Of a stretch of 64,000 nucleotides of DNA, positions 1 to 53,078 are shown in pieces. Both the position numbers and the translations under genes were made by a program. Under the pieces are notes generated by a model, which ran no database searches, was not told the DNA's origin, and saw nothing but the letters and a program-made list of their open reading frames with translations. Each line of letters opens with the position of its first letter. Within the stretch, counting starts at the first letter, position 1. Location of the stretch: positions 868,001 to 932,000 of the forward strand of contig NC_089442.1 in NCBI RefSeq assembly GCF_026210795.1, written 5' to 3'. Source of the DNA: Rhizophagus irregularis. Its lineage: Eukaryota; Glomeromycota; Glomeromycetes; Glomerales; Glomeraceae.

Positions 1-564
1 TAATTTTTACATTAGTAGTCTAAGTAAATAATTTACCTCATTTAAAAAATTTTCACTATTATTTGAGGAATTATTTAAAAGTTTTAATACGACATGCCTC
101 CCAAATCTTTCATATTTATTAAGAGGAGACTTAATATTTTCTTTACTTGCATCTTTATAATCTTTATCATTAATAACTCGTCCATATATACTATCAAATT
201 CTCTCTCCCATTGTTGAGCCTTACTATCCCATCTTTTAACGTATCCAGTTAACAAAATTGCTTTATAAACAATACTGAATCCACCTTGGGCGAGGTATTT
301 TATGTTTCTAAAACGATTATAAGGATACCATTCTAAAACTTCAAAACAATTTCTTGCTTTTAACTGAGAATCTTGTATAAACTTGTCTATAAATTTATTA
401 TCACTAGTCCACTTATCGAAATCCTGCTGAAATCGGTTGGAATTGCAATTTCAACACCAATACCAATGGGTATTCAGTTGTTTACAATCAGTGCATAGTC
501 CATATTTTTTGTTAACTATTATTTCTTCATATACACATAAAATATTTTCTATATTTTCAGGCAT
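1..564 (-). pseudogene. Zinc-ribbon TKL kinase, N-terminal exon with an in-frame stop, cut by the window edge
   Basis: Read leftward from an ATG at 564, the frame encodes a zinc ribbon and then a kinase N-lobe with a glycine loop (QGGFSIVYKA), a VVLK lysine and an FLNE helix-C ending. This is the layout of the complete kinase at 31946-33575. A TGA at 451-453 interrupts the frame inside the second zinc-ribbon cysteine pair (W-C-stop-N-C). The exon ends at 37 and a GT donor follows (36-35), at the same phase-0 position after NE as in the other kinases of this window. The catalytic-lobe exon would lie outside the window. An Arg codon CGA changed to TGA would explain the stop, but that is inference. 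A selenocysteine or sequencing artefact is less likely. I am confident of the family and fairly confident that this copy is broken. Confidence 0.75.
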
Positions 565-3348: not shown

Positions 3349-3460
3349 ATGATTGGTTCGCTAGATATTTTGCAACAATCAACAATATATTTTGTGTAAT
3401 GCGCCTTTTTAAATGGTTGTTCGTTACGCTTGATTTTTTTTTAAAAAAAAATTCATAACC

Positions 3461-6400
3461 ATGTCATATGATATTCAAGATGATGATATTAAATGTAAAA
3501 TCTGTGGTGAAATATATACGGATTTATATTATAAATGGTGTAAACCATGTCAAATAATTAATATTATACGAAATTTTGCAAATTGGACAAGTGGAAATGA
3601 AAAAATTGATAAATTCATTCAAGAAATGCAACTAAAAGTTGAAGAGTACAATAAAATAATTTTTGAATGGATACCATATAACCAGTTCAATTATATTAAA
3701 AAAATAAGCAAAGGTCAATTTACTACAGCAATATGGAAGGATGGTTCATTAGAATATAATCATAAAGAAAGGAAATATAAAAGAAACCCAAATGAAGAAG
3801 TTACTTTAAAATACTTAAATAATTCACAAAATATTATTAATGATTTTTTAAATGAGGTATAAAACTTATTACTTTTTTATAATTTTGATCTTTAAAAGTT
3901 CTTTTATTCTATTTTAACATTAATATTTTATATTTACTAATAGGTTGAAACACAAATTATTAAAAGATTAAAATATACTAATATTTCTAAAATATATGGT
4001 ATATCCCAAAATCCAGACACAAAAAATTATATTATAGTATTTCAAGATGGCTGCTATTGTGACAACTGTAATGAAATATATACAAATATATCTTTCAAAT
4101 GGTGTAAACTATGTCAAATAAATGATATTAAACAAAATTTTTCAAGTCAAACTATTGGAAATAAAATAATTGATGACTTTATTCAAGAAATGCAATTGGC
4201 AATTGAATCACAGGACGATGTAGTATTTGAATGGATACCATATAACAAGTTTAATAATGTTAAAGAAATAAGAAAAGATACAATTTATTCAGCAATATGG
4301 AAGGACGGTTCATTAAAATATAATAATATAAAAAGGAAATATGAAAGAAGTCATGATGAAAAAGTTACTTTGAAATGCTTTAATAATTCACAAAATATCA
4401 TTAATAGCTTTTTAAAAGAGGTATGATCCTTTTGATATCTTTGCAATTCAATTTTTAGTTTTATTATAACCTTTTTTTATATATTTAATAGCTTAAAGTT
4501 TATATTGTTGAAGGAAATTTATTACATTTTCCTATAATATATGGAATATCCCAAAATCCAAATACAGAAAATTATATTATAGTATTTCAAGATGGATGTT
4601 GTTGTAATAATTGTGGTGAAATATATACAAAAATGCGGTGTAAATCATGCGAAAAAAGTAATATAAAACAACATCTTGCAAACTGGACTAGTGGAAATGA
4701 AAAAATTGATGAATTCATTCAAGAAATGCAATTAGATATTGAGAGAAATGATGATAGGATTATTGAATGGATACCATATAACAAGTTCAATAATATTAAA
4801 AGAATAGGCAAAGGTAATTTTGCTACGGTAATATGGAATGATGGACCATTAAAATATAATTATAGTGAAAGTAAATATAAAAGAGAATCTAATAAAAAAG
4901 TTATTTTAAAATGCTTGAACTATTCACAAAATATCACTAGTGAATTTTTAAATGAGGTAATATAATTTAATTTATTTTTGCTAATCATACTTTTATTATA
5001 ATAATAATCTTGATTATATTTTTATATTTTAACAGGTCAAAGAAATAAACAAAACTAATACTATGTATGGAATATCTCAAAATCCGGATACAGAAGATTA
5101 TATTATTGTACTTGATAATAATAATTGTGAAGAATGTGGTGAAATATATACAGACATATCTTTTCAATGGTGCAAACAATGTCAAATAAATGATATTAAA
5201 AACAATTTCACAAACTGGTCTAGCGGAAATAAAAAAATTGATGGGTTCATTCAAGAAATGCAATTAAAAGTTGAGAGGCATTTTGATATAATTGTTGAAT
5301 GGATACCCTACAGGCAGTTCAATAATATTAAAAAAATAGGCAAAGGTGAAATTTCTATAGCAATATGGAAAAATGGCCCATTAGAATATGATTATAGAGA
5401 AAGGATATATGAAAGAAAATCTAATAAAGAGGTTACTTTAAAATATTTAAATGAATCACAAAATGTTATTAGTGACTCTTCAAATAAGGTATGAAACTTA
5501 TAATTTTCTTATCTAAAATTATTTTCATTATAACATTTTTTTATATAATTAACAGGTTAAAGTATATTCTATTAAAGAAAATGAATATGATATTCCTAAA
5601 ATGTACGGAATATCCCAAAATCCAGATACAAAAGATTATATTGTTGTACTTGACAATAGTTATTGCAAAGAATGTGGTGATCAATACATCGGTAGTATAT
5701 ATTATAAATGGTGCAAACCATGTCAAATCAATAATTTAAAAAATAATTTCACAAACTGGTCTAGTGGAAATGAAAGAATTGATGAATTTATTCGAAAAAT
5801 GCAATTAACAATTGAAAAATATGATGATAAAATAGTTGAATGGATACCATATAACCAGTTTAATATTAGCAAGATATGCAATAGTAGTTTTGCCACAGCA
5901 ATATGGAAGGATGGTTTATTAAAATATAATTATAAAAAAAAGAAATTGGAAAGAATACCTAACAAGGAAGTCACTTTAAAATGTTTAAATAATTCACAGA
6001 ATAATACTAACAAATTATTAAATAAGGTATGGAACTCCTAATTTCCTTGTAATTCATTTTTTTAAAGTAGTTTTATTATAAAATTTTTTATACATTTAAC
6101 AGGTTAAAATATATTCTATTAAAGGAAATAAATATGATACTCCTAAACTGTATGGAATATCCCAAAATCCAGATACAAAAGATTATATTATTGTACTTGA
6201 TAATAGATATTGTAAAGAATGTGGTGAAATATACACAAAAATATCTTTCCAATGGTGTAAACAATGTCAAATAAATGATTTTAAAAAGAATTTCACAAAC
6301 TGGTCTAGTGAAAATGAAAAAATTGATGGTCTTATTCAAGAAATGCAATTAAAAATTAAGAGTTGCTCTGAAATAATTGTTGAGTGGATACCATATAATC

Positions 6401-7512
6401 AGTTTAGTAATATTAAGGAAATAGGCAAAGGTGGGTTTGCTACAGTATATTTAGCTATTTGGAAGGATGGTCCATTGGAATATATTAAAAATAAGAAGGA
6501 ATGGGAAAGGTCACCTAACAAAAAAGTTGCCTTAAAATGCCCGTGTAATTTACAAAATATTACTGATGGATTTTTGAAAGAGGTACGAATTTTTATTCTT
6601 TGAACTTAATAATATTAAATATTATTCAAATAACTGAATGTTTTTATTTTCTAATAGATTGAAGCATATTCTATTGATAAACTTGATGGAATTCTTAGAA
6701 TACATGGAATATCTCAAAATCCGGATACAAAGGATTATATTATTGTACTTGAGTATGCAAATTGTGGAAATCTTAATTATTTTTATAGTAATATTATTAG
6801 AAATTATCGTTGGTATGAAAAATTGTCTCTATTAAGGGATATTATTAAGGGACTTAAAAAAATTCATGAAAATGGAATAGTTCATCATGATTTTCACACA
6901 GGAAATATATTAATTTCTTTGACCCATAATAAGGAGTATTTTTCTGAACATCCAATTAGTAATGTATATATTTCAGATATGGGATTATGTAGAGAAGCTG
7001 ATAATGCAATTGAAACAAAAATTTATGGAGTTATGCCTTATATGGCTCCTGAAGTATTAAGAGGAAAACCATATACTCAAGCAGCAGATATATATAGTTT
7101 TGGCATGATTATGTATTTTGTTGCAACTGGACAACAACCTTTTGCTGATTGTGCCCATGATAATGTTTTAGCATTTAATATATGTAAAGGAATAAGACCT
7201 GAAATAAATAAACTAGAAATACCAGAATCTTATATTAATCTTATGGAAAGGTGTTGGAGTCCAAATCCAGACAATAGACCAAATGCAATTGAAATAAAGG
7301 ATTTCATCCAATTGTTTTATAATGATGAGGAAGTTAAAAAGCAAGTTAAAGAAGTAGAAAAATATAAAGAACCAGATTTTTTATCTGACATAAATAATCA
7401 AACTATTCATCCACAGGCTTATTACGCTTCTCGATTGCTAAATCCATTTACAAAAGATCTTTCAAAAGATGATACTGATACTGAATGTTTAGACTGTGTG
7501 ATAACAAACTGA
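3461..7512 (+). CDS. TKL-type kinase with six tandem zinc-ribbon/N-lobe modules and one catalytic lobe
   Basis: I read seven exons: 3461-3856, 3944-4420, 4492-4956, 5036-5488, 5556-6026, 6103-6582 and 6658-7512. The six introns are all phase 0, 67-87 nt, with GT/AG ends. The open protein is 1198 residues. Exons 1-6 each encode a CxxC...CxxC zinc ribbon, a W-S/T-S-G-N segment, an EWIPY strand and a kinase N-lobe with its lysine (VTLK/VILK/VALK) and an LNE or LKE ending. Exons 2-6 each begin with strands beta-4/5 (YGISQNPDTKDY), which then run straight into a new zinc ribbon. Only module 6 (residues about 755-914) has a full glycine loop, GKGGFATVYLA, with Lys 899. Modules 1-5 lack three residues there (F-A-T-A-I-W in place of F-A-T-V-Y-L-A-I-W). 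Exon 7 is the catalytic lobe: HHDFHTGN (Asp 992, His where HRD has Arg), SDMG (Asp 1021) and APE (1044-1046). Activity is plausible but unproven. Symmetric exons would also allow exon choice by splicing. Confidence 0.8.
3944..6582 (+). repeat. Tandem array of five duplicated phase-0 exons plus introns
   Basis: Exons 2-6 of the kinase (151-160 codons each) and their introns form a head-to-tail array of about 520-565 bp units. Every unit has the same GT donor after a GAG or AAG codon and an acceptor before a V, L or I codon. Exons 4-6 look closest to each other. Exon 3 lost four residues between the zinc-ribbon cysteine pairs. The shared three-codon loss in the glycine loop of modules 1-5 suggests that they expanded from an already altered copy. 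Confidence 0.8.
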
Positions 7513-10831: not shown

Positions 10832-13800
10832 TCATAGGTGATTAATTATATCTTTCAGCTCAAGCAAGTTTTCCATTTCTTTTCTTGAAAAATATTTATC
10901 TTTAAAAATTTCTGGAACATTTGGATAAATATTATGAAAATTTAGAAATAAATCAACTATGTTAGGAATGTTAGGAATATACAGTAAGTTATTTTTTCTT
11001 TATTATTCCCAAATCGAACATAATCTATTTGCTATAAATAAATAAATAATGATGAGTTACTAAAATCAATTTTCTTTTAAAATAAAAAGTTCCAAGTAAA
11101 ATAGAAGCATACCATATTAATAGAACCGTTTATTTCAATTGAAGGTTGTACATAATATTCATATACATTTATTGGAAGCTGATATTCAATCCAACCTAAT
11201 CCCTTAAGTTTTAACACATCTTCATATTTTAACACACGTTTAAAATAGTTTAGTTCATGATTCTTATAATGTTTAGAATTCTATAATAAATCCATATATT
11301 AATAATTAAAAGTAACATTTTAAATAGTGAAAAAAGAGATTTTAGCAATTAATAAAACTTACAGTGCTTTTAATTTTAAAATTTATAAAGCAATCTTTAT
11401 TTAGTATTTCTTTAACATTTATTTTCCAAATAATTTTACGCCACCCAAAAATTAGCATGGGAAAATTCAAACAAAGCTCTTCGTTTTTTGAACTTATTAT
11501 CTTTCCTGATAAACTAAGAAATTTTAAGTTAAAAAATTTATCCCAATTTTTGAAAATTTTAAAATGCATCACAAATACATTCATTTACCTATTTATGTCA
11601 TTTTCTTGAAATTGATGAAGTCCGCTATCAAAATTTACCAGATCTGATATAAAATAAACTTGCGATTCTAAATAATTTATTGAATTTATTGATCAATAGA
11701 TTAATTATTAAACATTATAAAAAGTTAATAAATTAAACATTCTCTTACTTTCATACATGTGTTTACTAAATCCATTAACAATTCCGAGTTCGGAAAGATC
11801 ATCATTATTATTAACATTTAGATATAACCAAAAATCTGTGTATTCTCGTAATAAATAAATATATGAAATAAACCTAAAATAATTGTAAGAAGTACTATGG
11901 TCAGATAACAAGTTCAAGTCTAATATTGCTTTTTTTAATTCTACATATACTTTGCATCTAACAAAAAGTAGTAATTCAATGTCTTTAATATTAGAAATTT
12001 GATTAATTTTTATCAATATATTATTTAATTCTATAGAATTATTTTTATTCAGTAAATATTCCAGATGAAATTGTTGAATTTTTGCTAATATATCATTAAA
12101 ATCTAATAATTTTTTACACTTTTTAAATACCATTATAGCATTATCAATATCTTTTTTTGTATAATAAATTAGACATTTGAGATAATATGCTAAACTATTC
12201 AATGGATCTAATTGTATAACTTTATCAAGGTCTAATAAAACTTTATTGTAATCTTGAAGAGCATAATATGCAATAGCTCTCTTATTTAAGTTATGAATAT
12301 TTTCTGGATCAATAATATTTGCTTTTGTAAAATATGATATAGCTTTACTATATTGTTTCATATTACATAAAGTTTCTCCATAATAACATAAAATTAAAGA
12401 ATCATCCTTGTTGAAATTTAACAGTTTATCTAATACTTTTAAAGTTTCTGAATATATACCATGCTTTTCATAACAATATGCACTATTCTTAAGACATAAA
12501 TAATTATCTGGATTATTTCTTAATGCATAATTATAATTTTTGTATGCATAATAATCTTCTCTAAATAAGCGACTATTTCCAATTATTATATATGAGTTAT
12601 TTATTTTAGCCTTATAATCTATTGATTTCCATAAATTTTCTATTGCTTCATAATAGTTACTTTGCCAAAAAAATATTTCGCCACAAATTAAATAAGCAAT
12701 TGGTTCTTTTGGTTTTAAATTAATGGCTTCTTTCAAATATAAGTGTGCTTGTTCATAATTTTTAAGACATCTATAAATATAACCTAAAATGCATCTTAAA
12801 GAATAACTTTTAGGAAAAAAATTTATAAATTCTTTACACAATGATTCAGCTTTTTCATAATGTTTTTCATTTATTTCTTTTATAATATTTTTATATGTTG
12901 GATGTTGTTTTTTTGAATTTCTTGAAAGTATTGATGATAATGATATATTTGAATTTAATTTAATGATTGAATTAAATTTCTTCTTTTTAGTTAATATAAG
13001 ATCAGCTTCTGGATTATCTGAATCATCACTATCATCTATTTGATCAGAATTTTCTAATTTAATTGGAGGTATAATATATCCAGATTCGGAAAATTTAGTA
13101 TATAAATTTTTATAAATAGAATTTTGTGGTAAATATCTGATATCATTTTCTTCAATTATTTCTCGACATTCAGGACATATTTTTTGTTTTAATGATTTTA
13201 AATTATTTAATGATAATGTATGTTGACATTTTAAAATACATAATTGATCTTCTGGTTCACTACTAACCGGACAAGTCATTTCATTTGCTATAATATCTAT
13301 AACCTTAGAATTTGATGCCTGTTCTCTCTTTAAATATAAATTTTGATTGAAACATTTTCCTTTTCCTTTCTTTTCTTTTCCAATATTTTTACTTAAAATT
13401 TTCAAGTCTTTAAGATATTTTTCTTTAATAAATAATAATAAATTTTGAAATTTTTCTGAAAAATCTGATAATTTATATTCATTTAATTTTTTTATATATT
13501 GAACAAAATCATCCTCAATCATTGAAAACATTTTACTATCAATATTATGTAAATGTAATAATATTTCAACTGCTTTAAATTGAATGAAACTACTTGGAGC
13601 TTTATTAAGTGATTCAATTGCTAAATAATAACAAAGACCATATGTAGTAGTTCGAGTAGACTTTTGAATAAGGTTTTGTGCAATATCCAATATTCCAAAC
13701 CATAAGATATGTGGTAATGCAATAGGTTCATTTCCAGCGAGATCATTTAAGAAACTTCCAGTGTTTTTTAAAGCTTTAGTAACTTTATTTGATACTTCAT

Positions 13801-15115
13801 CAAATTTAGTTTGAGAATCTAAAATAGATTTATTAGTTATATCAATCCATTCTCTTTCCAAAAAGCTCCAAAGATATTCCATTAATACCAATCCACAGAA
13901 TTTTTTACTAATTATCATTTCAGTACCTTCAGATCAGGTAAAAAGATCATGTTGAATCATCAACATAATTCTCCAATCTACATAATAAGATGCTACAGGA
14001 TATTTAAAACTTAAACTTTCACGTATTTGAGCAAGCATTGATAATATTGAACAATCATTGAAGATTAACGCCTGTTATTGTTAAAATTCCTGGTGTGATA
14101 TTCAATGCAGTTTTAAGTAAATTTTTGGTTCTTCGTATAATTTCTTGGAACCAAGTTTCATCATCACGCAAACTATGTAATGTGTCTCGTAAGTGGATTA
14201 ATAAGAAGTCAATGTTATAATTACGCTTTTTAGTTATAATTTGATCATCTTGATCATTGCTCTGTTTATTAAATTGGTTAAATTTTGATCTAAAATTATT
14301 ATTAAGTCCTATTTCAATAACTTGTGTTGTTTTACGATGAATTTCTGCAAATTTTGATAAAGAATTATAAATTTTATCTCGAAGTTCTTTACTAAGTACT
14401 ATTGGCGAAAAGCATATCCGTTCTAAGACTGTTACCCAAGTTCTTAAATGTAACTCCAATCTAGTCACACTTTGTTTTGCATAAAAATCGAATGGGGTTG
14501 GATCCGCCAATGCAACTAAAGTGTCTCGAAGAATTTGAGGTGAAAAATCATTTTGTAAATTTTCAAAAAGTAATTTTAATGCATATAAATATTTGATGTC
14601 GGTCAATTCTTTAATAAGTTCTTTTGCCTTTCCATCGGAAGTTGTAAATCCATCCTCTTCTAATTTTAGAAGAATACTACTATTGTTGAAGAAGTTTTCA
14701 TGCGGAACCGTTTTATATGAAAAGACAGAGTCGTGAATTTCTGGAATAATATTGCTAGAAGAACTTCCGCTCTACATATTTATAAAATTATTATAAACTC
14801 AATTTTTAATTAATTAAAATATTTAATATTATTTAAAATTCTAATTTACCTGGCTTGAACTTCCATAATTTTTTTGTTGCAAAAGGATAAACCTCAACCG
14901 GCGTAAGATTTTTAGGAATAATATTTTCGTTTAAATGTAAGTTTGTACAACTGCAAGTTGGCGTAAATTTACATTGTAACATTGTAACAATCAACAGTTG
15001 CACATCGCTATTCAATGATATCATTTCTAAACTGTGGTGTAGTATCAAAGTATGATAGAATAAAATTTGTAACTCCAAGTACCTGATACGTTTCACGTAG
15101 TTTACTTAAAATTTC
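10832..15115 (-). pseudogene. Decayed RING/U-box-like and TPR-repeat protein gene
   Basis: The largest open part (13918 down to 11708) has a Cys/His cluster near residue 215 (CPVSSEPEDQLC...CQH...CPEC), like a RING or U-box domain. TPR repeats follow from about residue 345 to 620, so a ubiquitin-ligase or adaptor role is possible. Upstream, 14771 to about 14058 encodes an alpha-helical N-terminal region, after an intron at 14849-14772. Further relic coding runs up to about 15115. Downstream exons at 11667-11363, 11280-11113 and 11031-10832 finish the protein. Lesions are a TGA at 13934-13936 where Trp is expected, a frameshift near 14058, stops at 15008-15010 and 14969-14971, a TAA near 11587 and a frameshift near 10985. 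The family and its 3' exons are recognised from memory of expanded Glomeromycotina TPR genes. It is a pseudogene unless several introns have been misjudged. Confidence 0.7.
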
Positions 15116-18599: not shown

Positions 18600-19861
18600 C
18601 TATTCTAATTTTTTTCTTTTACTCTCAGATTCGTTATTTTGATTTAAGAAACAATTTTTTCTTTTACTGTCCGATTTGCTATTTTGACCTAATAATAAAA
18701 AAAATATTACATTAATTACGAATGAAAAAAAATAAGTTATTATGCAGAAATTAATATTTACTATCTTCATTAATTTGTAAAGGTCAAAAAAAAAAAACAC
18801 TTTATTATTAGTATTTTATAAACTAAGTATGTTTAAAGTCATTACTTAAGTAAACTATTTACCACTCTTATTAATATTTAATTGAGAAAACCTAAGTTGT
18901 AAAGATCTATTTAATAAATTGGATTGTATTATTAGTATAATATTGACTAAATACATTTAAAAAGGCAGCAATTAATAAGTATTTAATTAATACCTGAAAA
19001 TTCCTTGCTTATTATATTATCGTTTTTCTCATAATAATCATCCGAATTTTTTGATTCAGGAAGATTATTGAAACTAAGCAATCTACTTGTATAAATAGCC
19101 CCTGAATGTGGTTTATATGATATTCCTAAACTAGTTGAAGACATAATTTGAACTCGTGAATTGTTATTGATTTTTTCTGTTTCTTTGATTTGTTTCTGTA
19201 ATTCAGCTGTTTCACTATCACTTTCTTTATATTGCCATTTACGTAAAATATTAATAATTTCTTTCGTTGCTGGTCTATTTAATTGATTTGCATCCAAACA
19301 CCTTTTGATTAACTGAACAATTAATTGTGGCACGTTAATATTAAATCTTGGTCTAAGTCCTTGACAAATTTTTATAACCAAATTTTCATTATGATTAGTA
19401 TCATAATATGGAGGTAATCCAGAAATTATTTCATACATAATTATACCAAAACTGTAAATATCTGCAGCTTTTGTATAATTTTTTCCTCTTAAAATTTCAG
19501 GAGCTATATAAAGCAAAATACCATATATATTATTTTTTGATAAATTACAATTCGCAGGTTTACGCAATCCCATATCAGTTATAGCAACATTATTTTCATG
19601 TTTCAATATATTACCAATATGTAAATCTCGATGAATTAATTCCTTTTCATGAATAAAATTAAGTCCAGATATAATATCATCTAAATGTCTAAATATACTT
19701 TTCCAATTTAATTCATAATATTTTGTGTCCAAATATTTTCGTAAACTTCCATCATTTGCATATTTTAAAACCATTACATAATTTTCTGTTTCCGGATCTT
19801 GAGTTATTCCATAAAGTTTTGTAATTCTAAAATCATCATCTACTTTATGATGTAGTATCAC
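18600..19861 (-). pseudogene. TKL kinase catalytic lobe without its N-lobe exon
   Basis: Two exons can be read: 19861-18994 and 18688-18600, joined in frame in a GGT codon (phase 1), for about 318 residues. The first starts just after a TATAG acceptor with V-I-L-H, at the phase-0 position where the other kinases splice their N-lobe exon to the catalytic lobe. It contains hinge strands (YGITQDPETENY), an intact HRD loop (IHRDLHIGN), DMG and APE motifs, and the conserved late kinase segments. The short last exon is basic (KSDSKRK, ESKRKK), possibly a nuclear localisation tail. No zinc-ribbon or glycine-loop exon is found upstream. A transposon-like end occupies 19940-20058 and the duplicated F-box region follows. 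The copy is most likely 5'-truncated. A very long first intron reaching beyond the F-box genes cannot be excluded. Confidence 0.7.
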
Positions 19862-20845: not shown

Positions 20846-20946
20846 TGGAATAGATCCAAACACTTGCTGCGGTAACACTGATAAATTATAAATTTAACCT
20901 AATTTGAATAATTTAAAAAACAATACTCCCTTCTTCGTTTTGCAAT

Positions 20947-22650
20947 ATGGCATGCTCAAAAATATTGTTAGGAGATTTGCCCGAATTAACATATGATATT
21001 ATACAATACTTTCGGGATGACATTCCAACATTACGTTCATGTATTTTAGTTAACAGATTTTGGTGTCAAACGGCAATTCCATTATTATGGAAAGACCCGT
21101 TTTCAATTAAAAATCCTAAAAACTTTCACTTTATTGAAATTTACTTACATAAAATAAATGAAGAAGACAAAACACAATTAAATCGATGTGGAATTAACAA
21201 TAATGTATTTCCTTCAAAAACATTATTTAATTATTCCAATTTTATTAAATGTATAAATACACGAAACATGTGTTCCATTATTGTAAATTGGATTAAAATT
21301 AACAAAAAGTTTACCTGTTCAAAAGGACGTATTTTTTTATTATTAATTAATGTATTTATCGAAAATGAAGCTAAATTACATACTTTTGAAATTGAGATTT
21401 CATTTAATTACCTCATGAGCAGAAAATTTTTTAATTCTATTTTTAAATTAATCTTACAAAATCCAAAATTCATTAGTAATATAAAAAATTTAAAACTTCA
21501 TTTTAATGAAGAAATTATAAAATATAAATTTGATTATAATTTTTTAAAATGTTTTTATTATCATTGCAATTTAATTTCATCACTTCATATTAGATTTTCA
21601 AATTATGAAAGTTTTAGCCATAACCACATGATGATTAAAAATCAATTATCTCAGATCACTAATTCACAAAAAAATCTCGAAAAAATTATTTTCGCACATT
21701 TTCCATTGTCAGAAAATAATATGCGATTAGATAATCTCATATGTGGTTCTAATAGTTCAAAACATTTAAAGATAATTATATTTCATAAAATTGATTTTAA
21801 AAATATATTACATATAAAAGAGGCATTTGAACAATTAAATGTTTTAGAATCTATTCATATACTTGAGTGTCTTATTTTTAATTCTAGTTTTATTCAACAA
21901 ATCATTGGTCTTAACAAACCACTTAAATTAATATCTTTGTTTATAAGAAATGAAGATGATCACAGATCCTTGTTTATGAGTGATGAAGATAGAAATTTAC
22001 AAATTGAATCAATACGATTGTTATTTCAAAAATTTGAGGGATATTTAGAAAATATTGGATTTAACTCAAATGTAAATGATGTATTAAAATACGAAGCATT
22101 AAAATTTATCAATAGTTATTGTAAGAGAATTAAATTTTTTGATATAGATACGCATGGTATTCAGAAAGCTCATATTGTATTAGATTCAGTTAAAATTTTC
22201 GTACAAAACCTTAATTATCTTTCCATGTATTTTTATATTCCGTATGGTGAAAAAAATGAATCTACAATAGAATTAGTTTTAAGATTAGCACATATTCTTC
22301 CTTGTAAGTTAGAATTTTTGAATTTAAGTTTTAATGGTGAGATTAAAAAAAATGTTTGGGAAGTATTTTTAAAAAATTTAAGACATATTTTTGTTAAGAA
22401 ATTATTATTCGAAATTAATATATTACTTGCTGATATTTTACCATATATAAAGGAATATATTATGAAAGAAAAAAGGGCTGAATACTTAGCTATTGTGAGT
22501 AGACATGCTAGTAGATTTCGGTGTTACCGTCAAAGAGAGTTGTTTACTATAACAGATGAATTGAAGGAATTTGAATCATATAACATTAAAATTAAAGAAT
22601 ATGATAATTTATTTATTAAAGCCATTAAATTTATAGATGAGATGTATTAG
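20947..22650 (+). CDS. F-box protein, paralogue 1
   Basis: This intact single-exon frame of 567 residues has an F-box at residues about 10-50 (LPELTYDIIQYF, then CILVNRFWCQTAIPLLW). F-box domains bind SKP1 and place the protein in an SCF ubiquitin ligase. The remaining 500 residues are rich in Ile, Leu, Asn and Lys and look like diverged leucine-rich repeats that would bind a substrate, but I cannot name the target. The ATG is the first in frame and has a conserved TATA box upstream. The paralogue at 24842 is very similar, differing by substitutions and small in-frame indels near residue 340 (LFMS present here) and residue 378. F-box proteins are strongly expanded in arbuscular mycorrhizal fungi, consistent with local duplication. 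Confidence 0.85.
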   Translation: MACSKILLGDLPELTYDIIQYFRDDIPTLRSCILVNRFWCQTAIPLLWKDPFSIKNPKNFHFIEIYLHKINEEDKTQLNRCGINNNVFPSKTLFNYSNFIKCINTRNMCSIIVNWIKINKKFTCSKGRIFLLLINVFIENEAKLHTFEIEISFNYLMSRKFFNSIFKLILQNPKFISNIKNLKLHFNEEIIKYKFDYNFLKCFYYHCNLISSLHIRFSNYESFSHNHMMIKNQLSQITNSQKNLEKIIFAHFPLSENNMRLDNLICGSNSSKHLKIIIFHKIDFKNILHIKEAFEQLNVLESIHILECLIFNSSFIQQIIGLNKPLKLISLFIRNEDDHRSLFMSDEDRNLQIESIRLLFQKFEGYLENIGFNSNVNDVLKYEALKFINSYCKRIKFFDIDTHGIQKAHIVLDSVKIFVQNLNYLSMYFYIPYGEKNESTIELVLRLAHILPCKLEFLNLSFNGEIKKNVWEVFLKNLRHIFVKKLLFEINILLADILPYIKEYIMKEKRAEYLAIVSRHASRFRCYRQRELFTITDELKEFESYNIKIKEYDNLFIKAIKFIDEMY

Positions 22651-24751: not shown

Positions 24752-24841
24752 TGGAATAGGATCCAAACACCCGTTGCGGCAACAACACTAAAAAATTATA
24801 ATTTGAATAATTTAAAAAATAATACTCCCTTCGTTTGAAAT

Positions 24842-26536
24842 ATGGCATGCTCAAAAATATTGTTAGGAGATTTGCCCGAATTAACATATGATATTATACA
24901 ATACTTTCGGGATGATATTCCAACATTACGTTCATGTATTTTAGTCAATAGATTTTGGTGTCAAACGGCAATTCCATTATTATGGAAAGACCCGTTTTCA
25001 ATGAAAAATCCTAAAAACTTCCACTTTATTGAAATTTACTTGCATAATATAAATGAAAAGGACAAAACACAATTAAATCGATGTGGAATTAACAATAATG
25101 TATTTCCTTCAAAAACATTATTTAATTATTCCAATTTTATTAAATGTATAAATACACGAAACATGTGTTCCATTATTGTAAATTGGATTAAAATCAACGA
25201 AACGTTTACCTGTTCAAAAGGACGTATTTTTTTATTATTAATTAAAGTATTTATTGAAAATGAAGCTAAATTAAATACTTTTGAAATTGAAATTGCATTT
25301 AATTACCTTATGAGCAGAAAATTTTTTAATTCTATTTTTAAATTAATCTTACAAAATCCAAGATTCATTAGTAATATAAAAAATTTAAAACTTCATTTTA
25401 ATGAAGAAATTATAAAATATAAATTTGATTATAATTTTTTAAAATGTTTTTATTATCATTGCAATTTAATTTCATCACTTCATATTAGATTTTCAAATTA
25501 TGAAAGTTTTAGTAATAACTACATGACAATTAAAAATCAATTATCACAGATTACTAATTCACAAAAAAATCTTCAAAAATTTATTTTTTCACACTTTCCA
25601 TTTTCAGAAAATAATATACGATTAGATAATATCATATGTGGTTCTAATAGTTCAAAGCATTTAAAGATAATTATATTTTATAAAATTGATTTTAAAAATA
25701 TATTACATATAAAAGAGGCATTTGAACAGTTAAATGTTTTAGAATCTATTCATATACTTGAGTGTCTTATTTTTAATTCTAGTTTTATTCAACAAATCAT
25801 TGATGTTAATAAACCATTTAAATTAGTATCTTTGTTTATGAGGAAAGAAGATGATCATAGATCAAGGGATGAAGATAGAAATTTACAAATTGAATCAATA
25901 CGATTATTATTTCAAAAATTTGGGGGATATTTAGAAAATATTGGATTTAACTCAAATGTTGGTGTATTAAAATACAGAGTATTAGAACTTATTAATAATT
26001 ATTGTAAGAGAATTAAATTTTTTGATATATATACATCTAGTATTCAGAAAGCTCATAATATATTAGATTCAGTTAAAATTTTCGTACAAAACCTTAATTA
26101 TCTTTCCATATATTTTTATTTTCCGTATGATGAAAAAAATGAATCTACAATAGAATTATTTTTAAGATTAACACATGTTCTTCCTTGTAAGTTAGAATTT
26201 TTGAATTTGAGTTTTAGTGGTAAGATTACAAAAAATGCTTGGGAAGTATTTCTAAAAAATTTAAAAAATATTTTTGTTAAGAAATTATTATTCGAGACTA
26301 GTATGTTAGTACTTGCTGATATTTTACCATATATAAAGGAATATATTATGAAAGAAAAAAGGGCTGAATATTTAGCTATCGCAAGTATACATACTAATAG
26401 AAATCGGTGTCAGTGTCAAAAAGAGTTGTTTAATATGACAGATGAATTGAAGGAATTTGAATCATATAATATTAAAGTTAAAGAATACTATAATTTATTT
26501 ATTAAAGCCTATGAATTTATAGATGAGATGTATTAG
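24842..26536 (+). CDS. F-box protein, paralogue 2
   Basis: This intact single-exon frame of 564 residues is closely related to the protein at 20947-22650. The F-box (residues about 10-50) is identical to that of the paralogue. Differences accumulate mainly in the C-terminal half, for example the deletion of S-L-F-M near residue 340, the two-residue change around residue 375 and the tail SIHTNRNRCQCQKE against SRHASRFRCYRQRE. That pattern fits a conserved SKP1-binding domain with a diverging substrate-binding part. Neither copy has a stop or frameshift, so both may be expressed. The substrate is unknown. Confidence 0.85.
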   Translation: MACSKILLGDLPELTYDIIQYFRDDIPTLRSCILVNRFWCQTAIPLLWKDPFSMKNPKNFHFIEIYLHNINEKDKTQLNRCGINNNVFPSKTLFNYSNFIKCINTRNMCSIIVNWIKINETFTCSKGRIFLLLIKVFIENEAKLNTFEIEIAFNYLMSRKFFNSIFKLILQNPRFISNIKNLKLHFNEEIIKYKFDYNFLKCFYYHCNLISSLHIRFSNYESFSNNYMTIKNQLSQITNSQKNLQKFIFSHFPFSENNIRLDNIICGSNSSKHLKIIIFYKIDFKNILHIKEAFEQLNVLESIHILECLIFNSSFIQQIIDVNKPFKLVSLFMRKEDDHRSRDEDRNLQIESIRLLFQKFGGYLENIGFNSNVGVLKYRVLELINNYCKRIKFFDIYTSSIQKAHNILDSVKIFVQNLNYLSIYFYFPYDEKNESTIELFLRLTHVLPCKLEFLNLSFSGKITKNAWEVFLKNLKNIFVKKLLFETSMLVLADILPYIKEYIMKEKRAEYLAIASIHTNRNRCQCQKELFNMTDELKEFESYNIKVKEYYNLFIKAYEFIDEMY

Positions 26537-31824: not shown

Positions 31825-31945
31825 TTGTTTGAACCGTTTATTTTTTTTTTATTTTTTTTTCTTTTTTAAATTGTCATATTTAAAAAAATATATTTTTTAA
31901 TATAAAAAAAAATTCTTAAAAAAATAATAAAAAATAATTTAAAAT

Positions 31946-33575
31946 ATGTATGTATATGATTTATATAATTCAAATTTACTTAAAAATATTTCAAACGAAT
32001 ATAGTGAATATGAAAAAAATATAATTAATCAGACATATGGATTATGTTCTGATTGTAAAGAACCAAAAACATTTTGGGGATGGTGTAAAAGTTGTAATTC
32101 TAAAAGATTTCAAATGGCTTTTCAATGGACTAGTGGTAATGGAATTATTGATAAAATTATAAAAGATTCTCAATTAACTGCAAGAAATAAAAGAGAGGTT
32201 ATAGAATGGATTCCTTATGATCGTTTAAAAAATATCCAATTCCATGCTCGAGGTGGATTTAGTACTGTATATCTTGCTATTTGGTTAGATGGACGTATTA
32301 GGACTTATTGGAATAATGAAACAAATCAACTGGATAGAAAAGTTTTTAAACTTAATGAAGAAGATTTTAAAAATGCAAGGAACAAAGAGACGAGATCTCC
32401 TCTACAAAAAAATGAAAAAACTGGTTTCCATGTTGTATTGAAATGTTTAAATAATTCTTCTAATGATACTGAAGGATTTTTAAATGAGGTAAAATTTATA
32501 ATTAATTCTTTTTATTTACGTTATTTTAAAATTATTTATATATTAATCGTAATTAATTATTTTTAGTGGAAAAATTATTTAAAATTTATATATTCAACCA
32601 TGAATAATAATTGTGATTCAATACGATTATACGGAATAACTCAAGATCCGGTGACATTAGATTATATGATAGTCATGGAATATATGAGTTATGGTAGTTT
32701 AAGATCTAATTTGATGATAAAAAAATATAATCCGTACGATAAATTTAACAACTTGTATTTCATTGCAAGATCTCTATCAGCCCTACATAAGTGCGGTTTA
32801 ATACATGGTGATTTTCATAGTGGTAATATACTTTTACAGTCTCATAGGTATGCTTATATAAGTGATTTTGGATTAAGTCGATCTGCTCATAAATCTGATT
32901 CTAATGAAGTTTATGGAGTACTTCCTTATATTGCTCCAGAGGTATTACGTGGAAAACCATATACCAAAGCTTCTGACATATATTCTTTTGGTATTATAAT
33001 GTGGGAGATGACATCTGGGATTCCTGCTTTTAACAATGTACCTCATGATTTTTATCTTTCCATAGGAATATGTAAAGGAAATAGACCAGAGATTATTGAT
33101 GATACAGAACCTGAGTATGTTGAATTAATGAAAAAATGTTGGGATTCTGAACCTAACAAAAGACCATCAGCCGAAGATCTTATTGAATGCTTTAAAAAAA
33201 TGCGTTCACAATATTATTCTAATTATGATAGAGTACAAGTGCCAGGTAAATAAAAAAAAAATTTAATAAGCGTCATATTTAATGATTTTTTTATTTAATT
33301 AAAAAAATACTATTTTTTTAGAGAACGAAGTCATTATTCAAAACCATCCATTATCTTGTTATACGAGTAGAAAAATTAATTATTCTACAGAATTAAACGA
33401 GATTTTGAAGTCGAGTGAGTCGAGTGAAAGCTTAGGTATATTTATTTATTTATTATTATTTTTTTCCTATATATATTTTTTCCTATCGTCATTGCTAATT
33501 TTATATTAATTTTTTAAAGAACATTGTAGGGTTAATGAAGTTGATTATTTATATCCTGTAAGGGGTTCGGTGTAA
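31946..33575 (+). CDS. Zinc-ribbon TKL-type protein kinase, four exons
   Basis: I read exons 31946-32488, 32567-33245, 33322-33435 and 33520-33575, giving 463 residues. The first intron is phase 0 and the other two are phase 1. Residues 34-50 form a zinc ribbon (Cys 34, 37, 47, 50). The kinase domain follows, with glycine loop ARGGFSTVYLA (101-111), Lys 166 (VVLK), hinge MEYMSYGSL, catalytic HGDFHSGN (Asp 263, Gly where HRD has Arg), DFG (Asp 281) and APE (304-306). This is one N-lobe exon followed by one catalytic-lobe exon, the normal layout of the family, and it serves as the reference for the other three kinase loci here. Loss of the HRD arginine does not by itself abolish activity. The short tail exons (residues about 408-463) have no recognised domain. 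The upstream or downstream signalling partner is unknown. Confidence 0.85.
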
Positions 33576-48675: not shown

Positions 48676-51581
48676 ATGGATAATCAAATTCATCACATTT
48701 ACACATTTGATAATGAATATGAAACCATATTAGATTTGGCATCAGACCAAATTCTTGATAATGATAACAATGTAAACCTACCTTTGAATCAATTAAATCT
48801 TCCAAATCAATATATCAACTTCCAAAATAATATGCAAACAATTTCATATTGGCGACCTTCATCTAAATTAAAAATGCTACTTAATAAATTTCAAAATAAC
48901 ATCCTATCACAATGGCCCGAATTGCTTGTGTATACTGTGGAAAACTTCTGTATCCTGAAAAAGCAAATTGGATGCTTTATGATCCTTCAATCACTTATCC
49001 TTTGCAACAACAAGTGCCAGATATTTCTTTAACTTTCCATCCAAATACTAATCGCATCCCTGAATCAAGAATTCCTACTTGTGATTCTTGTAAAAAACCA
49101 TCAACACGATATTCTTTTCCTTACCTATCACCTATACCAGAAGAAATAGCTTCTGTTCTTCTTTACAAAAGAAAACACCTTTCGCCTGTTTACCTCCACT
49201 GTTCCTTAGGAAGAACTCCAAATAGTAATCCATATTCAGAGTACAGAAGTCTAACAGGTATGATGAACTATTCTCGTAATGTAAGAGCACATGTACTATA
49301 CAGTGGAATTATAGGCACTTTTTTAGAACCAAACAACAATGACAATAATCTTAATAATGATACAATGGAAAACCAAATTCATGATGAAACTTTGAAACGA
49401 GCTGCTACTTGGTTATCACTTAACAATCCATATCTTCGTCCATATGCCCACATTTTATCTTCACAATCTTCTGAACAAAATAGAAATAACCCATTTCCAA
49501 GAGCTAGACATATTCAATCTGATACACAAGCACCTCCAGTCAATCCTCATGATATAATAGTTCCAAACTATGATTTTCCTAGTGAAGTGCATAATGAGGA
49601 CTTTCACTATACCAGATTAATGGCAGGATTCATCCAAAAAAGTGATAACTTACGAATACCAATTCCAACTCATGATCCTAATCTAGAACCACTATTGTTT
49701 CCAGATATTTTTACAGATGGAAGAGGTCATTTTCATGACATGTTGGACCAACAAAGACAGAATGGTGAGATGCGTGATGAAACATATGGCAAATACATCA
49801 AATTACGATTAATGAATTTTGATTCAAGATGGAGACTTCATCATTACTGGCCTTCATGGTCATACCTTCAGCTGGAAAAGTTGCGACATCATCAGAATAC
49901 ACAACGATTATTACGCCAAGCTCAACTTAATTCTAGTAACAATCCAAGACTCCCATTAGCAAGAGATTTACTTCAACCCAGTGCTTACACCTCTTGTAAT
50001 ATAATTGATGAAAATATGACATTACCTATCCCTACATTTATACGTACTGGTGATACTTATTTTCATCAAAAACAGCTTCATCTAAATGCAATGATACAAA
50101 AGATTGGTTTACCAACATTATTTATAACACTAAGCATGGCTGAAAACCGATGGACTCACTTACGTGATATACTTTCTATTAGTGATAATGGTGATACTTT
50201 ACCTACAAATAGGCCTTTTCATTGTGCCAACTATTTTGTTCATAAATTTAAATCCTTGAAAAATGAACTTTATAAAAAACCAGATTTAACAGGTTTTGGT
50301 AATATCACAGACTTCTTTGATCGTGTTGAGTTCCAGAACAGAGGTGCAGCTCATACACACAGTTGTTACTGGACAACTAATAGTATTGAAGTTATGATTA
50401 CAAATGATGTTATTCGTTCAACTATGCCAGATCCAGTATATGAACCTGAACTTTATGCTGCTGTTGTTGCTAATCAGATTCATACATGTAATGAAAAATG
50501 TGGAGGACCTGCACCTTTAGGACAAACTTGTAGGAAAGGATTTCCACGTCCTTATAGTGAAACAACTCACTATGAAGAAGGAAATTCTCGTTATATATAT
50601 AAATGTTTAACTCAAGCTGACTCATGGGTTGTTCCATATCATCCTGCTATCCTTCTTCTATGGGATGCACACATGAATGCCCAATATATTACAGATAAAG
50701 GATTTGCTAGATATATGATAAAGTATATTGCTAAAAGAGAACCTTCTCATGTATTTAATATTCAAGAAAATAACTTATTAAGAGAGCATATTATTGCTCG
50801 AAGGCTTGGTTCTATGGAACTTATGTTCCTTCTTCTTGGATATCAAATTTGCAATTCTTCTGCTACTGTGAAATTTCTTACTACTGAACCACCTCAAACA
50901 AGAACCCGTACTATAATCCCAATTTATATGATAGAAGAAGATGATGAGAACCCATATTATGATGACAATATTATGAAATATATGTCACGCCCTCACCTTC
51001 CTGAGTTTAATAATCTAACCTACCCTCAATATTTTGAAAAATACTCTATAACACCTTCATCACCTACTTCTACATCACGACAAATTTACCATGATAATCT
51101 GGGTAATTATATTGTTAAACGTTCTAAAGAAATAGTTACTAGATATCGGTTTCTAAAAATTGAAGATGGAGAGCTATATTTTTATCAACAGTTACTTTTA
51201 AAAATACCTGCAAGAGATGAATCAGACTATAAAATCAGACCAGATGGAACATACTGTGAAAAGTTTTTATCCCTATTTCCTGAATTTCTAACTGACTTAC
51301 AAAATCAAATTACAAACACTCAGCAATCACATATTACACGATTAAACAAACAGTTTTCTGAAATGTTAAGTAGATTACTGTCATCTCTTAATCAACAACT
51401 CACACAGAACATTTCATCTATAATACAAATGCAAATGGAAAGTTTAAAACTGCTTCCTCATGTATTTCCTGAAACTGCTATGTTAGAATTACCACAAGAT
51501 CAATACCGTGCATTAAATACTATTAGAATGTATATGGGAGAAAATGATGGTATAAAATGGCCATACTTCTTTATAACTGGA

Positions 51582-51986
51582 TTATACATGTTGCTGAAAC
51601 TTTTTTTCAATTTTGGCCGCATTTCGGCACCAAAATATAGCTACTTGTAGATATATCAATAAAATTTTTTAAACCTCAGATAATTTGGGCCAGATCTGCA
51701 GCAACTTTTGGCAGACTTCAGAAAATTTCGGCATAATCTGCAATAATTTCGAATCGGACTTTAAAGTTTTGGCCATATATTAAATATATGTTGTCCGAAA
51801 TTCCAGAGTCCTGCCGAAATTATGTAAGTTGGTCGAAATTCCTCAAAAGTTCTTTCATAGGTTCTTCAGACCCAGATTAACCTATTTGAAGCCTAATTTC
51901 AGCCAAATCTATGAAATCAGATGATCTTGCTTTGAAGAGTTTGTCACGTAGGCGAAATAGCCGAAATATTTCGGCAACATGTATAA
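51582..51986. mobile_element. MITE inserted in the helicase Walker A region
   Basis: The ends are TTATACATGTTGCTGAAA on the left and TTTCGGCAACATGTATAA on the right. They are inverted repeats with one mismatch in 18. ACTGGA occurs on both sides (51576-51581 and 51987-51992), a 6-bp target duplication. The 405-bp interior is full of TTTCGGC/GCCGAAA motifs and has no gene. The insertion splits the codons between FFITG and SAGTGKS of the helicase. Confidence 0.85.
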
Positions 51987-52902
51987 ACTGGATCAGCTGG
52001 TACAGGAAAATCCTATATTATCCACATGATTGTTAATATACTTAAACAGAGACGTTCTAATTATTTACTTTTAGCTCCCACTGGAGTAGCTGCACAAAAT
52101 ATAGATGGTAAGACAATTCATTCTGAATTAAGAATTGTAACTACTCAAGGAGGTTTCTATACTCGTGCTCATACAGATAATGAGCTAAAAACAAGATTGA
52201 AGAAAATTGATACCATAATTATTGAAGAAGTATCTATGGTTTCTGCTGAACTCCTTGATTTCATTTCAAATGTTTTTGCAAATCTTCACAATAATGCTAT
52301 TGCTTTTGGTGGTATAAATGTTATAGTTGTGGGTGACTTAGCACAACTCCCACCTGTTTCTGGTCAACAAGTATTTCGTGCTGCTACTTGGTCATTATTT
52401 TACCCATTATTTTTAAGAACTCCTCAACGTCAAAATAATGATAATACATTTTATCAAATGCTTGAAGAAATACGAATAGATAATATCTCTACAGAAACTA
52501 GAAATATCTTACAGCAACGTCATTCTGAATTCTTAGTTAGATCTGCAGTTGAAACATCCTTTAATACTACCCATATTGTTGGATTTAAAGAAAATGCCCA
52601 ATTTATTAATACAATGATCTGTAACACACTTCCTGTTCCTCCCAATAAATTTCTCCTTTCCCAAGCTTCTGATTTTGTAAATTCCATACCATATGATAGA
52701 TCTTTCTGTGACAAGATGTTTAAACCAAAAACTAATCTACCATCCTATATCAGAATACAACCTGGTGCACGTGTTATGTACCTTAACAACTCCCTAATTG
52801 AACATGGCATATGCAATGGTACAATGGGTGTAATCACTGATGTTAATCCTTCAGAACAAATTGTACGTATTGCCTTTTCTGTCCGAGGTTCTATAATAGA
52901 TA

Positions 52903-53078
52903 TACAGTCAAACCTTGACATAGCGAACCCTTGATATAGTGAATTTTTCAGACAACTATAATAAATTTCCCCTTGCTATAACGAATTAACCAATCAAATC
53001 TCTTAAAATCTTCACTATAGCCCTATAGCGAAGTTAAAGTCTGGAACCTAGGGTTCGTTATAACAAGGGTTGACTGTA
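52903..53078. mobile_element. Tc1/mariner (pogo)-like MITE in the helicase
   Basis: CAGTCAAACCTTGACATAG on the left faces TATAACAAGGGTTGACTG on the right, with TA on both sides (52903-52904 and 53077-53078). TA target sites and CAGTCAACCCTTG-type ends are typical of pogo/Fot-like elements. The 172-bp core has no gene. It lies between the third quarter of the helicase and its last motifs. Confidence 0.85.

Follow-up and report, generated by a model that had tools for sequence, protein, structure and literature searches.

The gene at positions 3461 to 7512 of the window (the whole stretch of 64,000 nucleotides of Rhizophagus irregularis DNA that was analysed) probably encodes, by constitutive splicing, one long protein in which pseudo-N-lobe modules with a putative docking or regulatory role are followed by a single complete kinase. 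Its seven exons would most likely all be spliced together, giving a protein of about 1,200 residues that would consist, in this order, of five zinc-ribbon/N-lobe modules without an intact glycine loop (the pseudo-N-lobes), then a zinc ribbon and a TKL-like kinase domain. The complete kinase domain would be made of the exon 6 N-lobe and the exon 7 C-lobe. The features are as follows.

3461 to 3856, plus strand: exon 1, with start codon, zinc ribbon (CxxC..CxxC), linker helix and beta1-alphaC of N-lobe 1; loop ISKGQFTT, 3-residue beta2 gap
3944 to 4420, plus strand: exon 2, with beta4-beta5 of N-lobe 1, zinc ribbon and beta1-alphaC of N-lobe 2; loop lost
4492 to 4956, plus strand: exon 3, with beta4-beta5 of N-lobe 2, zinc ribbon and beta1-alphaC of N-lobe 3; GKGNF kept, beta2 residues missing
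5036 to 5488, plus strand: exon 4, with beta4-beta5 of N-lobe 3, zinc ribbon and beta1-alphaC of N-lobe 4; GKGEI, beta2 gap, alphaC Glu to Lys
5556 to 6026, plus strand: exon 5, with beta4-beta5 of N-lobe 4, zinc ribbon and beta1-alphaC of N-lobe 5; CNSSF, beta2 gap, alphaC Glu to Lys
6103 to 6582, plus strand: exon 6, with beta4-beta5 of N-lobe 5, zinc ribbon and beta1-alphaC of N-lobe 6; intact glycine loop and beta2 GKGGFATVYLAIW, VALK, alphaC Glu
6658 to 7512, plus strand: exon 7, with beta4-beta5 of N-lobe 6, the single catalytic C-lobe (VHHDFHTGN, SDMG, APE), tail and stop
3857-3943, 4421-4491, 4957-5035, 5489-5555, 6027-6102 and 6583-6657 (within 3857 to 6657), plus strand: six phase-0 introns of 67-87 bp

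All seven exon lengths are divisible by 3, and each intron runs from a GT donor to an AG acceptor. When the exons were spliced in silico, they gave a frame of 1198 residues with no internal stop. The exon coordinates of the original prediction hold. That prediction described six symmetric phase-0 exons, each coding a zinc ribbon and a kinase N-lobe. The repeat units are real: at the DNA level the window contains six register copies spaced 532-564 bp apart, an array far beyond chance expectation. The N-lobes, however, are split. Exons 2-6 open with a beta4-beta5 segment (YGISQNPDTKDYIIVLD) that has its homologue at the beginning of exon 7. An intron between alphaC and beta4 therefore divides each N-lobe, and the following exon supplies the remaining strands. 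Symmetry applies to exons 2-6 but not to exon 1, whose 5' bound is the start codon, with a T-run/A-run leader upstream of the ATG. Because the phase-0 intron falls between alphaC and beta4, each exon boundary brings together strands that belong to a single N-lobe, and an array could grow by any number of units with every fold kept intact.

The six units show 55-65% amino-acid identity to exon 6 in the alignment, and C37, C40, C52, C55 and the beta3 Lys are invariant across them. The intact glycine loop with beta2 is found only in exon 6, at a place where exons 1-5 share a 3-residue gap; the alphaC Glu is replaced by Lys in exons 4 and 5.

The joined exons 6 and 7 matched PF07714 with 128.4 bits (cut-off 23.1, profile positions 4-256) and PF00069 with 127.6 bits (cut-off 31.7), and exon 7 alone scored 112.8 bits against Pkinase. 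Exon 6 carries the GKGGFATVY loop, the VALK beta3 Lys and the FLKE alphaC Glu, while exon 7 supplies the catalytic Asp and Asn of HHDFHTGN. Exon 7 has DMG in place of the DFG motif, as do 35 of the 37 C-lobes of the array family described below (the other two were unmatched by the pattern), and HxDxHxxN is present in all 37. Since DMG retains the Asp and Gly of DFG, the terminal kinase is likely to be catalytically active. The upstream units have no C-lobe of their own, and the annotated arrays have one C-lobe exon, at the array end. The N-lobe joined from exons 1 and 2 aligned to PF07714 positions 3-79 with 19.6 bits, under the cut-off of 23.1. Among the 10 of 27 joined N-lobes that were scored, the Pfam kinase cut-off was reached by 0 of 8 upstream and 2 of 2 terminal ones, and a separate test of joined upstream N-lobes gave 0 of 2. 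The CxxC..CxxC site is present in all six window units, whose scores lie under the cut-off of the Pfam zinc-ribbon profiles; these modules are predicted zinc ribbons. AlphaFold2 models were built from single exons, namely exon 5 (pLDDT 82.6, pTM 0.66) and exon 6 (pLDDT 83.4, pTM 0.66). Comparison of single-exon models with kinase N-lobes showed only modest similarity (VIA Z up to 5.2 in one comparison and up to 3.0 in another). Each module would be expected to fold. Foldseek with the exon 6 model returned no match at E <=0.001 (best E 0.34); kinases made up 47 of the 50 matches listed.

At least 53 loci in the R. irregularis genome contain two or more such exons. The annotated set comprises 37 arrays, namely the window array and 36 others of the same design with diverged units, and each has 3 to 9 units when fragments are merged, i.e. 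2-8 upstream copies. Where profile matches reached the unit ends, GT followed in 163 of 164 cases and AG preceded in 31 of 33, which indicates that the unit borders are splice sites in one phase; the 191 of 218 introns assigned to phase 0 came from a rule that admitted in-frame sites only, so that this count is uninformative on phase. A simple splicing rule gave a single frame free of internal stops for 21 of the 37 arrays; among them, L021 stops at a C-lobe frameshift and L018 (minus strand) runs beyond its stretch. The automatic rule failed in the other 16, in some through real stops or frameshifts. In 20 of 37 arrays the 200 bp ahead of unit 1 contain a T-run/A-run; of 191 introns, whose length is much smaller, 2 contain one.

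Clear lesions, as judged by the authors, were found in 6 of 174 upstream units, 2 of 37 terminal units and 2 of 36 fully covered C-lobes, and at least 9 of the 37 arrays carry one. Three uncertain early ends (L027 unit 5, L028 unit 5 and L033 unit 1) would raise the upstream count to 9 of 174. This count left out L009 and L016, which are in-frame gaps inside one open frame, L018 (minus), which is cut by its stretch, and, on the C list, L002, L003, L019 and L031, which are beta4-beta5 pieces of the last unit.

The canonical glycine loop separates the terminal unit from the rest. It was found in 36 of 36 readable terminal N-lobes, but among the 163 upstream N-lobes that could be read it was found in 1 (Fisher P 7e-39). 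This count treated a fragment matching the pattern as readable and left 19 of the 218 unit fragments unread. The lone upstream carrier, unit 4 of L030, is a 93% identical DNA copy of the terminal unit of its own array. Column conservation in upstream units was 0.99-1.00 for the zinc Cys, 1.00 for W95, 0.97 for W120, 0.99 for L144 and 0.91 for K145 (the beta3 Lys); for the zinc Cys and the core residues, terminal units are no better conserved than upstream ones. The loop Gly108, in contrast, is conserved at 0.34 upstream versus 1.00 in terminal units, and Asp is the commonest upstream residue (0.46) in the Gly110 column.

Omega was 0.29 for upstream units, 0.43 for terminal units and 0.28 for the C-lobe, each rejecting 1, in nine disjoint, author-chosen array pairs (43 unit pairs, 9 C-lobe pairs). 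The upstream units are thus under purifying selection on a par with the catalytic lobe. The constraint is not uniform, since in the young trio L012/L014/L015 the upstream exons differ by 10-11% and the introns by 5-10%, and unit 2 gave omega values (0.57, 2.07 and 1.05) of which none differs from 1, so that positive selection on this unit finds no support. When each unit was paired with its nearest counterpart in another array, the two shared their position class in 33 of 35 cases for terminal units, 26 of 32 for first units and 111 of 130 for internal units; window exon 6 is one of the two terminal units that paired with an internal one.

These observations argue for the long protein. The pseudo-N-lobe modules could form a multivalent, non-catalytic array for docking or regulation of the terminal kinase, and, judged from sequence, such a function of the upstream modules is probable. 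A multi-N-lobe scaffold, which the original prediction offered as its second option, fits the constrained units, the positions kept across paralogs and the 21 arrays that read as one frame. A search for intronless retrocopies with a query over the exon 5/6 joint found none among the matches listed of 163 (150 scored of 3,054 candidates), and most of those listed that span the joint by a good margin do so only through stop codons. Retained introns introduced a stop or frameshift in 189 of 189 tested cases, a result that weighs little, as AT-rich stretches of such length mostly break the frame anyway.

The alternative that deserves some credence, at perhaps one chance in a handful, is cassette skipping, in which a variable number or combination of exons 2-5 would always be joined with exons 6 and 7 to give one active kinase behind a variable array. 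Since beta4-beta5 is supplied by the next exon, complete N-lobes would remain whichever of the symmetric internal exons were joined in frame; the number of units also varies from 3 to 9 among paralogous arrays. Against this, splice sites of internal exons score close to the outer ones (donors 13.5 for internal, 14.1 for first and 15.3 for last; acceptors 10.3, 11.3 and 10.2, by a matrix built from the same sites that it scored), clear lesions are not enriched upstream, and unit positions are kept between paralogous arrays.

It is unlikely that the arrays grew by neutral accretion, with units added by unequal exchange and tolerated without any function beyond sparing the terminal kinase. Recent unit copies do exist in L017 (96-98% identical), L025 (97%) and L030 (93-96%), lesions affect a part of the arrays, and the ATP loop has been lost in upstream units. 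However, the upstream omega matches that of the C-lobe, the zinc Cys and core residues have been kept as in the terminal unit, and unit positions persist over paralogous arrays.

Mutually exclusive choice, by which one of six equivalent catalytic N-lobe exons would join exon 7, was the first of the two options in the original prediction and is now very improbable. In its favour are the homologous phase-0 exons in tandem, the zinc ribbon kept in the units and the beta3 Lys kept in most of them. Choice among equivalent catalytic N-lobes is disfavoured because the canonical loop is nearly confined to the terminal unit while the upstream units stay constrained. Moreover, unit 1 is the start exon and a constitutive exon upstream of the cluster is absent, double inclusion costs no frame in the window, and the window introns are of ordinary length (the family median is 72 bp) and not too short. 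As to competing RNA structures, the last intron was compared with each of the other introns for pairing; over 147 pairs and with a crude dinucleotide-block shuffle, the mean z was +1.04 with 0.7% below -2, which is weak evidence of absence. Exon choice through alternative promoters was also disfavoured: 34 of 37 first units have an in-frame Met 5' of the zinc ribbon, while 61 of 181 later units have a Met somewhere in the open frame ahead of the zinc Cys and 46 of 161 have one inside the exon, at scattered sites with no common position. An assembly artefact or a dead gene, which the repetitive structure and some broken paralogous arrays might suggest, is hardly credible in view of the 36-46% protein difference among window units, the intact window frame and the many other annotated arrays.

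The long protein with its pseudo-N-lobe array can be compared with known systems. Plant tandem kinase-pseudokinases (TKPs; the WTK1/Yr15 family) and animal JAKs also pair an intact kinase with a degenerate module of kinase origin, the two standing in tandem, and in plant TKPs a glycine of the glycine-rich loop is reported, in the part of the source available, among the least conserved pseudokinase positions (PMC6170490). TKPs and JAKs add an entire kinase-like domain, whereas the annotated arrays add half domains (zinc ribbon and N-lobe) that lack a C-lobe; the window gene has degenerate nucleotide-binding motifs beside an intact kinase but not two whole kinase folds. As far as the available part of PMC9013439 describes them, mutually exclusive tandem exons are homologous, symmetric tandem duplicates as in the window array, which differs in having the start codon in its first copy, non-equivalent copies and, with weak evidence as regards RNA pairing, none of the anti-joint-inclusion devices that were tested. 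The MLKL-like/Sel1 and tyrosine-kinase-domain expansions of Glomeromycotina (PMC8778642, PMC6123716, PMC10234402) appear, from the portions of these accounts at hand, to belong to the same large expansion of kinases; for R. irregularis a total of 2,533 kinase genes is reported, the assembly paper (PMC10234402) mentions gene models based on Nanopore data, and N-lobe arrays go unmentioned in those portions. A literature search likewise found no description of an N-lobe array in the accessible text of open-licence papers, in agreement with the original prediction, which knew of no fungal kinase with such a layout; within this genome, however, it is no singular case but a large family. The same genome also encodes single-unit zinc-ribbon TKL-like kinases (e.g. 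window 31943-33253, one unit, loop ARGGFSTVYLAIW), which share the zinc ribbon, EWIPY linker, N-lobe exon, alphaC/beta4 intron and C-lobe exon; the array genes repeat the first exon and the start of the second.

Duplications of kinase domains usually take in the entire domain, and we know of no other architecture that combines many repeated small lobes with a single catalytic lobe. The array genes vary the kinase-pseudokinase tandem theme at the half-domain level. Tentatively, and with a good deal less confidence than the long protein itself, they might be viewed as a receptor-like family of Rhizophagus, a lobe-level analogue of tandem kinase-pseudokinase immune proteins, in which the loop-less modules would be a recognition array (decoy or partner-binding) and the terminal kinase the executor, grown by exon duplication and variable by in-frame splicing. 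Bolder still, the pseudo-N-lobes might vie with the terminal N-lobe for the sole C-lobe and so gate its activity. The near-exclusive presence of the loop in the unit next to the C-lobe, together with selection on the other units, gives a sharp hypothesis, namely that the pseudo-N-lobes are binding modules. As gene finders could split or truncate array genes, part of the kinase expansion in this arbuscular mycorrhizal fungus may be mis-modelled.

The array gene at 3461-7512 of the window (plus strand) has the seven exons of the original prediction, six zinc-ribbon/N-lobe unit exons followed by a catalytic (C-lobe) exon. Its introns have GT/AG borders, each exon is a multiple of three in length and, as predicted, the seven joined exons translate without a stop into one continuous 1198-residue frame. 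Exons 2 to 6 are symmetric as had been proposed for all six units, but exon 1 is not, because its 5' end is the start codon. The six unit exons recur in register every 532-564 bp, and their amino-acid sequences are 55-65% identical to that of exon 6. A beta4-beta5 segment with homology to the beginning of exon 7 opens each of exons 2 to 6, and therefore the intron splits each N-lobe between alphaC and beta4. These exons run from the beta4-beta5 of the preceding N-lobe through the zinc ribbon and a linker to beta1-alphaC of the next. In the predicted spliced protein every N-lobe would thus be completed by the following exon, and the array probably arose by tandem duplication from the zinc ribbon into the start of the catalytic exon. 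The GxG motif is absent from exons 1, 2 and 5; exons 3 and 4 keep it and miss three beta2 residues, and in exons 4 and 5 the alphaC Glu is replaced by Lys.

The window also contains a single-unit relative, which probably represents the basic gene design, and several other features:

31943-33253, plus strand: single-unit relative of the array genes, with a zinc ribbon/N-lobe exon containing ARGGFSTVYLAIW, an intron that carries an in-frame stop, and a C-lobe exon
7-450, minus strand: N-lobe-like kinase exon truncated at the window start, which has no Pfam match at 0.001
11708-13933, minus strand: 741-residue open frame with TPR repeats
18983-19861, minus strand: kinase C-lobe exon (PF07714, 126.6 bits)
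20917-22650 and 24839-26536, plus strand: two close tandem copies of an open frame of about 570 residues, no Pfam match at 0.001, which by eye we take to be F-box-like
48900-52934, plus strand: Helitron-type element (Helitron_like_N and PIF1-like helicase)

When joined, exons 6 and 7 form a kinase domain (PF07714, 128.4 bits). Among solved structures, exon 7 is nearest by sequence to Roco4, RIPK1 and MAP3K9, which are TKL-type kinases. Taken singly, none of the window's unit exons matched a kinase profile at E 0.1. Joined exons 1 and 2 reached 19.6 bits with PF07714 (profile 3-79), below the cut-off, and joined exons 4 and 5 gave no match to it. Of 27 joined N-lobes, 10 were examined; the cut-off was reached by both terminal ones (those beside the C-lobe exon) and by none of the eight upstream, three of which matched weakly. 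AlphaFold2 single-exon models of exons 6 and 5 had pLDDT values of 83.4 and 82.6 (pTM 0.66 each). VIA-align listed kinases in all 50 rows shown for the exon 6 model, the best with Z 5.2 and rmsd 2.4 over 57 residues (model 94-160). For the exon 5 model, 28 of the 30 rows shown were kinases, the best reaching Z 3.0 with rmsd 3.4 over 65 residues; both similarities are modest.

The Rhizophagus irregularis genome (146,748,485 bases, 32 contigs) was searched with exon 6, giving 150 scored matches among 5,273 candidates; many of the matches lie head to tail in clusters. All 150, merged with 43 places picked from a second match list, define at least 83 loci with one or more units and at least 53 with two or more; contig C14, which holds the window at 868001-932000, has at least 19 unit loci, at least 17 of them multi-unit. 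These are lower bounds, sequence inspection being mostly confined to fetched stretches. Roughly one in three of the multi-unit loci located (17/53) is on C14, the fetched ones within one megabase (about 0.25-1.22 Mb), a clustering that resembles an immune-gene cluster. Adjacent arrays at C14:712-715 kb and 720-723 kb have several units with equal match scores and are probably a recent segmental duplication. For the R. irregularis DAOM197198 assembly, 2,533 kinase genes are reported (PMC10234402).

From 35 fetched stretches (numbered L001 onwards), 37 multi-unit arrays were annotated, including that of the window. They contain 3 to 11 raw unit fragments each or, with broken units merged, 211 units in total and at most 9 per array. 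A single C-lobe exon terminates each; the stretch end cuts array L006 and the C-lobe of the minus-strand array of L018. The terminal kinase is probably active, since the array C-lobes carry HxDxHxxN (37/37), DMG (35/37) and APE (32/37).

Terminal and upstream units differ at the loop. At the loop, beta3 and alphaC positions, the residues of all 36 readable terminal units are Gly, Gly, Phe, Lys and Glu. The second loop Gly was present in 2/37 first fragments and 12/144 internal ones, counting gaps in the totals. Searched with a regular expression covering the canonical loop up to and including beta2, 36/36 terminal and 1/163 upstream units matched, 19 of 218 fragments being unread. The exception, unit 4 of L030, has 93% DNA identity to the L030 terminal unit and looks as a fresh copy of it would.

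The loop excepted, upstream units retain most columns conserved in terminal units: zinc Cys 0.99-1.00, S69 0.99, W95 1.00, A118 0.95, W120 0.97, L144 0.99 and K145 0.91. Gly108 falls to 0.34, and at Gly110 Asp is commonest (0.46). The alphaC end is looser than in terminal units (F157 0.63 vs 0.92, E160 0.87 vs 1.00). In a codon model of nine disjoint array pairs, omega was estimated at 0.29 (upstream units), 0.43 (terminal units) and 0.28 (C-lobes), and a value of 1 was rejected for each class. In the five pairs tested of the L001/L002/L003/L031 group, divergence was lower in upstream exons (15-19%) than in introns (22-28%). The younger trio L012/L014/L015 showed the reverse order (10-11% vs 5-10%), and omega of its unit 2 was not different from 1. 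At least 9 of the 37 arrays have a clear lesion. Read from a list with some rows set aside, clear lesions affect 6/174 upstream units (9/174 with three uncertain rows), 2/37 terminal units and 2/36 C-lobes; no enrichment in upstream units was found in this comparison. Upstream units thus do not appear to be decaying.

Where unit-profile ends were reached, GT followed in 163/164 cases and AG preceded in 31/33. Introns of 40-200 bp (median 72) were found at 191/218 junctions by pairing in-frame sites only. A simple splicing rule gave one frame without internal stops in 21/37 arrays (585-1432 letters including the stop). Among these, an intron length falls outside 40-130 bp in three arrays, and in one no start codon was recognised by the rule used. 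L021 stops at a C-lobe frameshift, and the minus-strand array of L018 extends past the end of its stretch. The rule failed in the other 16 arrays, some from real lesions. An in-frame Met precedes the zinc ribbon in first units of 34/37 arrays, and no common start position was found in later units. A T-run/A-run lies within 200 bp ahead of unit 1 in 20/37 arrays and in 2/191 introns, and is a candidate shared leader or core promoter. In the window, a T-run then an A-run precede the start codon at about 3385-3460, upstream of exon 1; by eye, a ACGCCGATC-like stretch is often found upstream of such leaders.

Splice-site scores depend little on unit position, and a comparison of the last intron with the other introns found no pairing between them. 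Together with the start and splice-site pattern, this fits one promoter with joint exon inclusion; in-frame exon skipping may be an alternative. The pattern does not fit the devices examined for mutually exclusive splicing, the mechanism behind one of the two options originally proposed.

In a tree of unit proteins (units of at least 120 residues), the nearest unit from a foreign array shares the position class for 33/35 terminal, 26/32 first and 111/130 internal units, window exon 6 being one of the two terminal exceptions. Maximal pure clades numbered 11 for terminal and 12 for first units, against at least 31 for each in 200 within-array label shuffles. Given these same-class neighbours and pure clades, arrays appear to be duplicated in their entirety, individual units being copied locally as well (L017, L025 and L030). 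Recent intra-array copies with 93-98% DNA identity (L030 units 4 and 6; L017 units 4, 7 and 8; L025 units 1-2 and 4-5) may be a sign of ongoing unit-number change.

Taken together, the data best support a single long protein in which a string of zinc-ribbon/pseudo-N-lobe modules is combined with one kinase. This agrees with the multi-N-lobe scaffold, the other option first proposed. No description of such an N-lobe-array architecture was found in the openly licensed papers searched. The protein would work like a kinase-pseudokinase tandem, but is not one because its extra modules have no C-lobe. With ATP binding probably lost and surface and fold probably retained, a natural role for these modules would be as a docking or regulatory array, which is what we infer.
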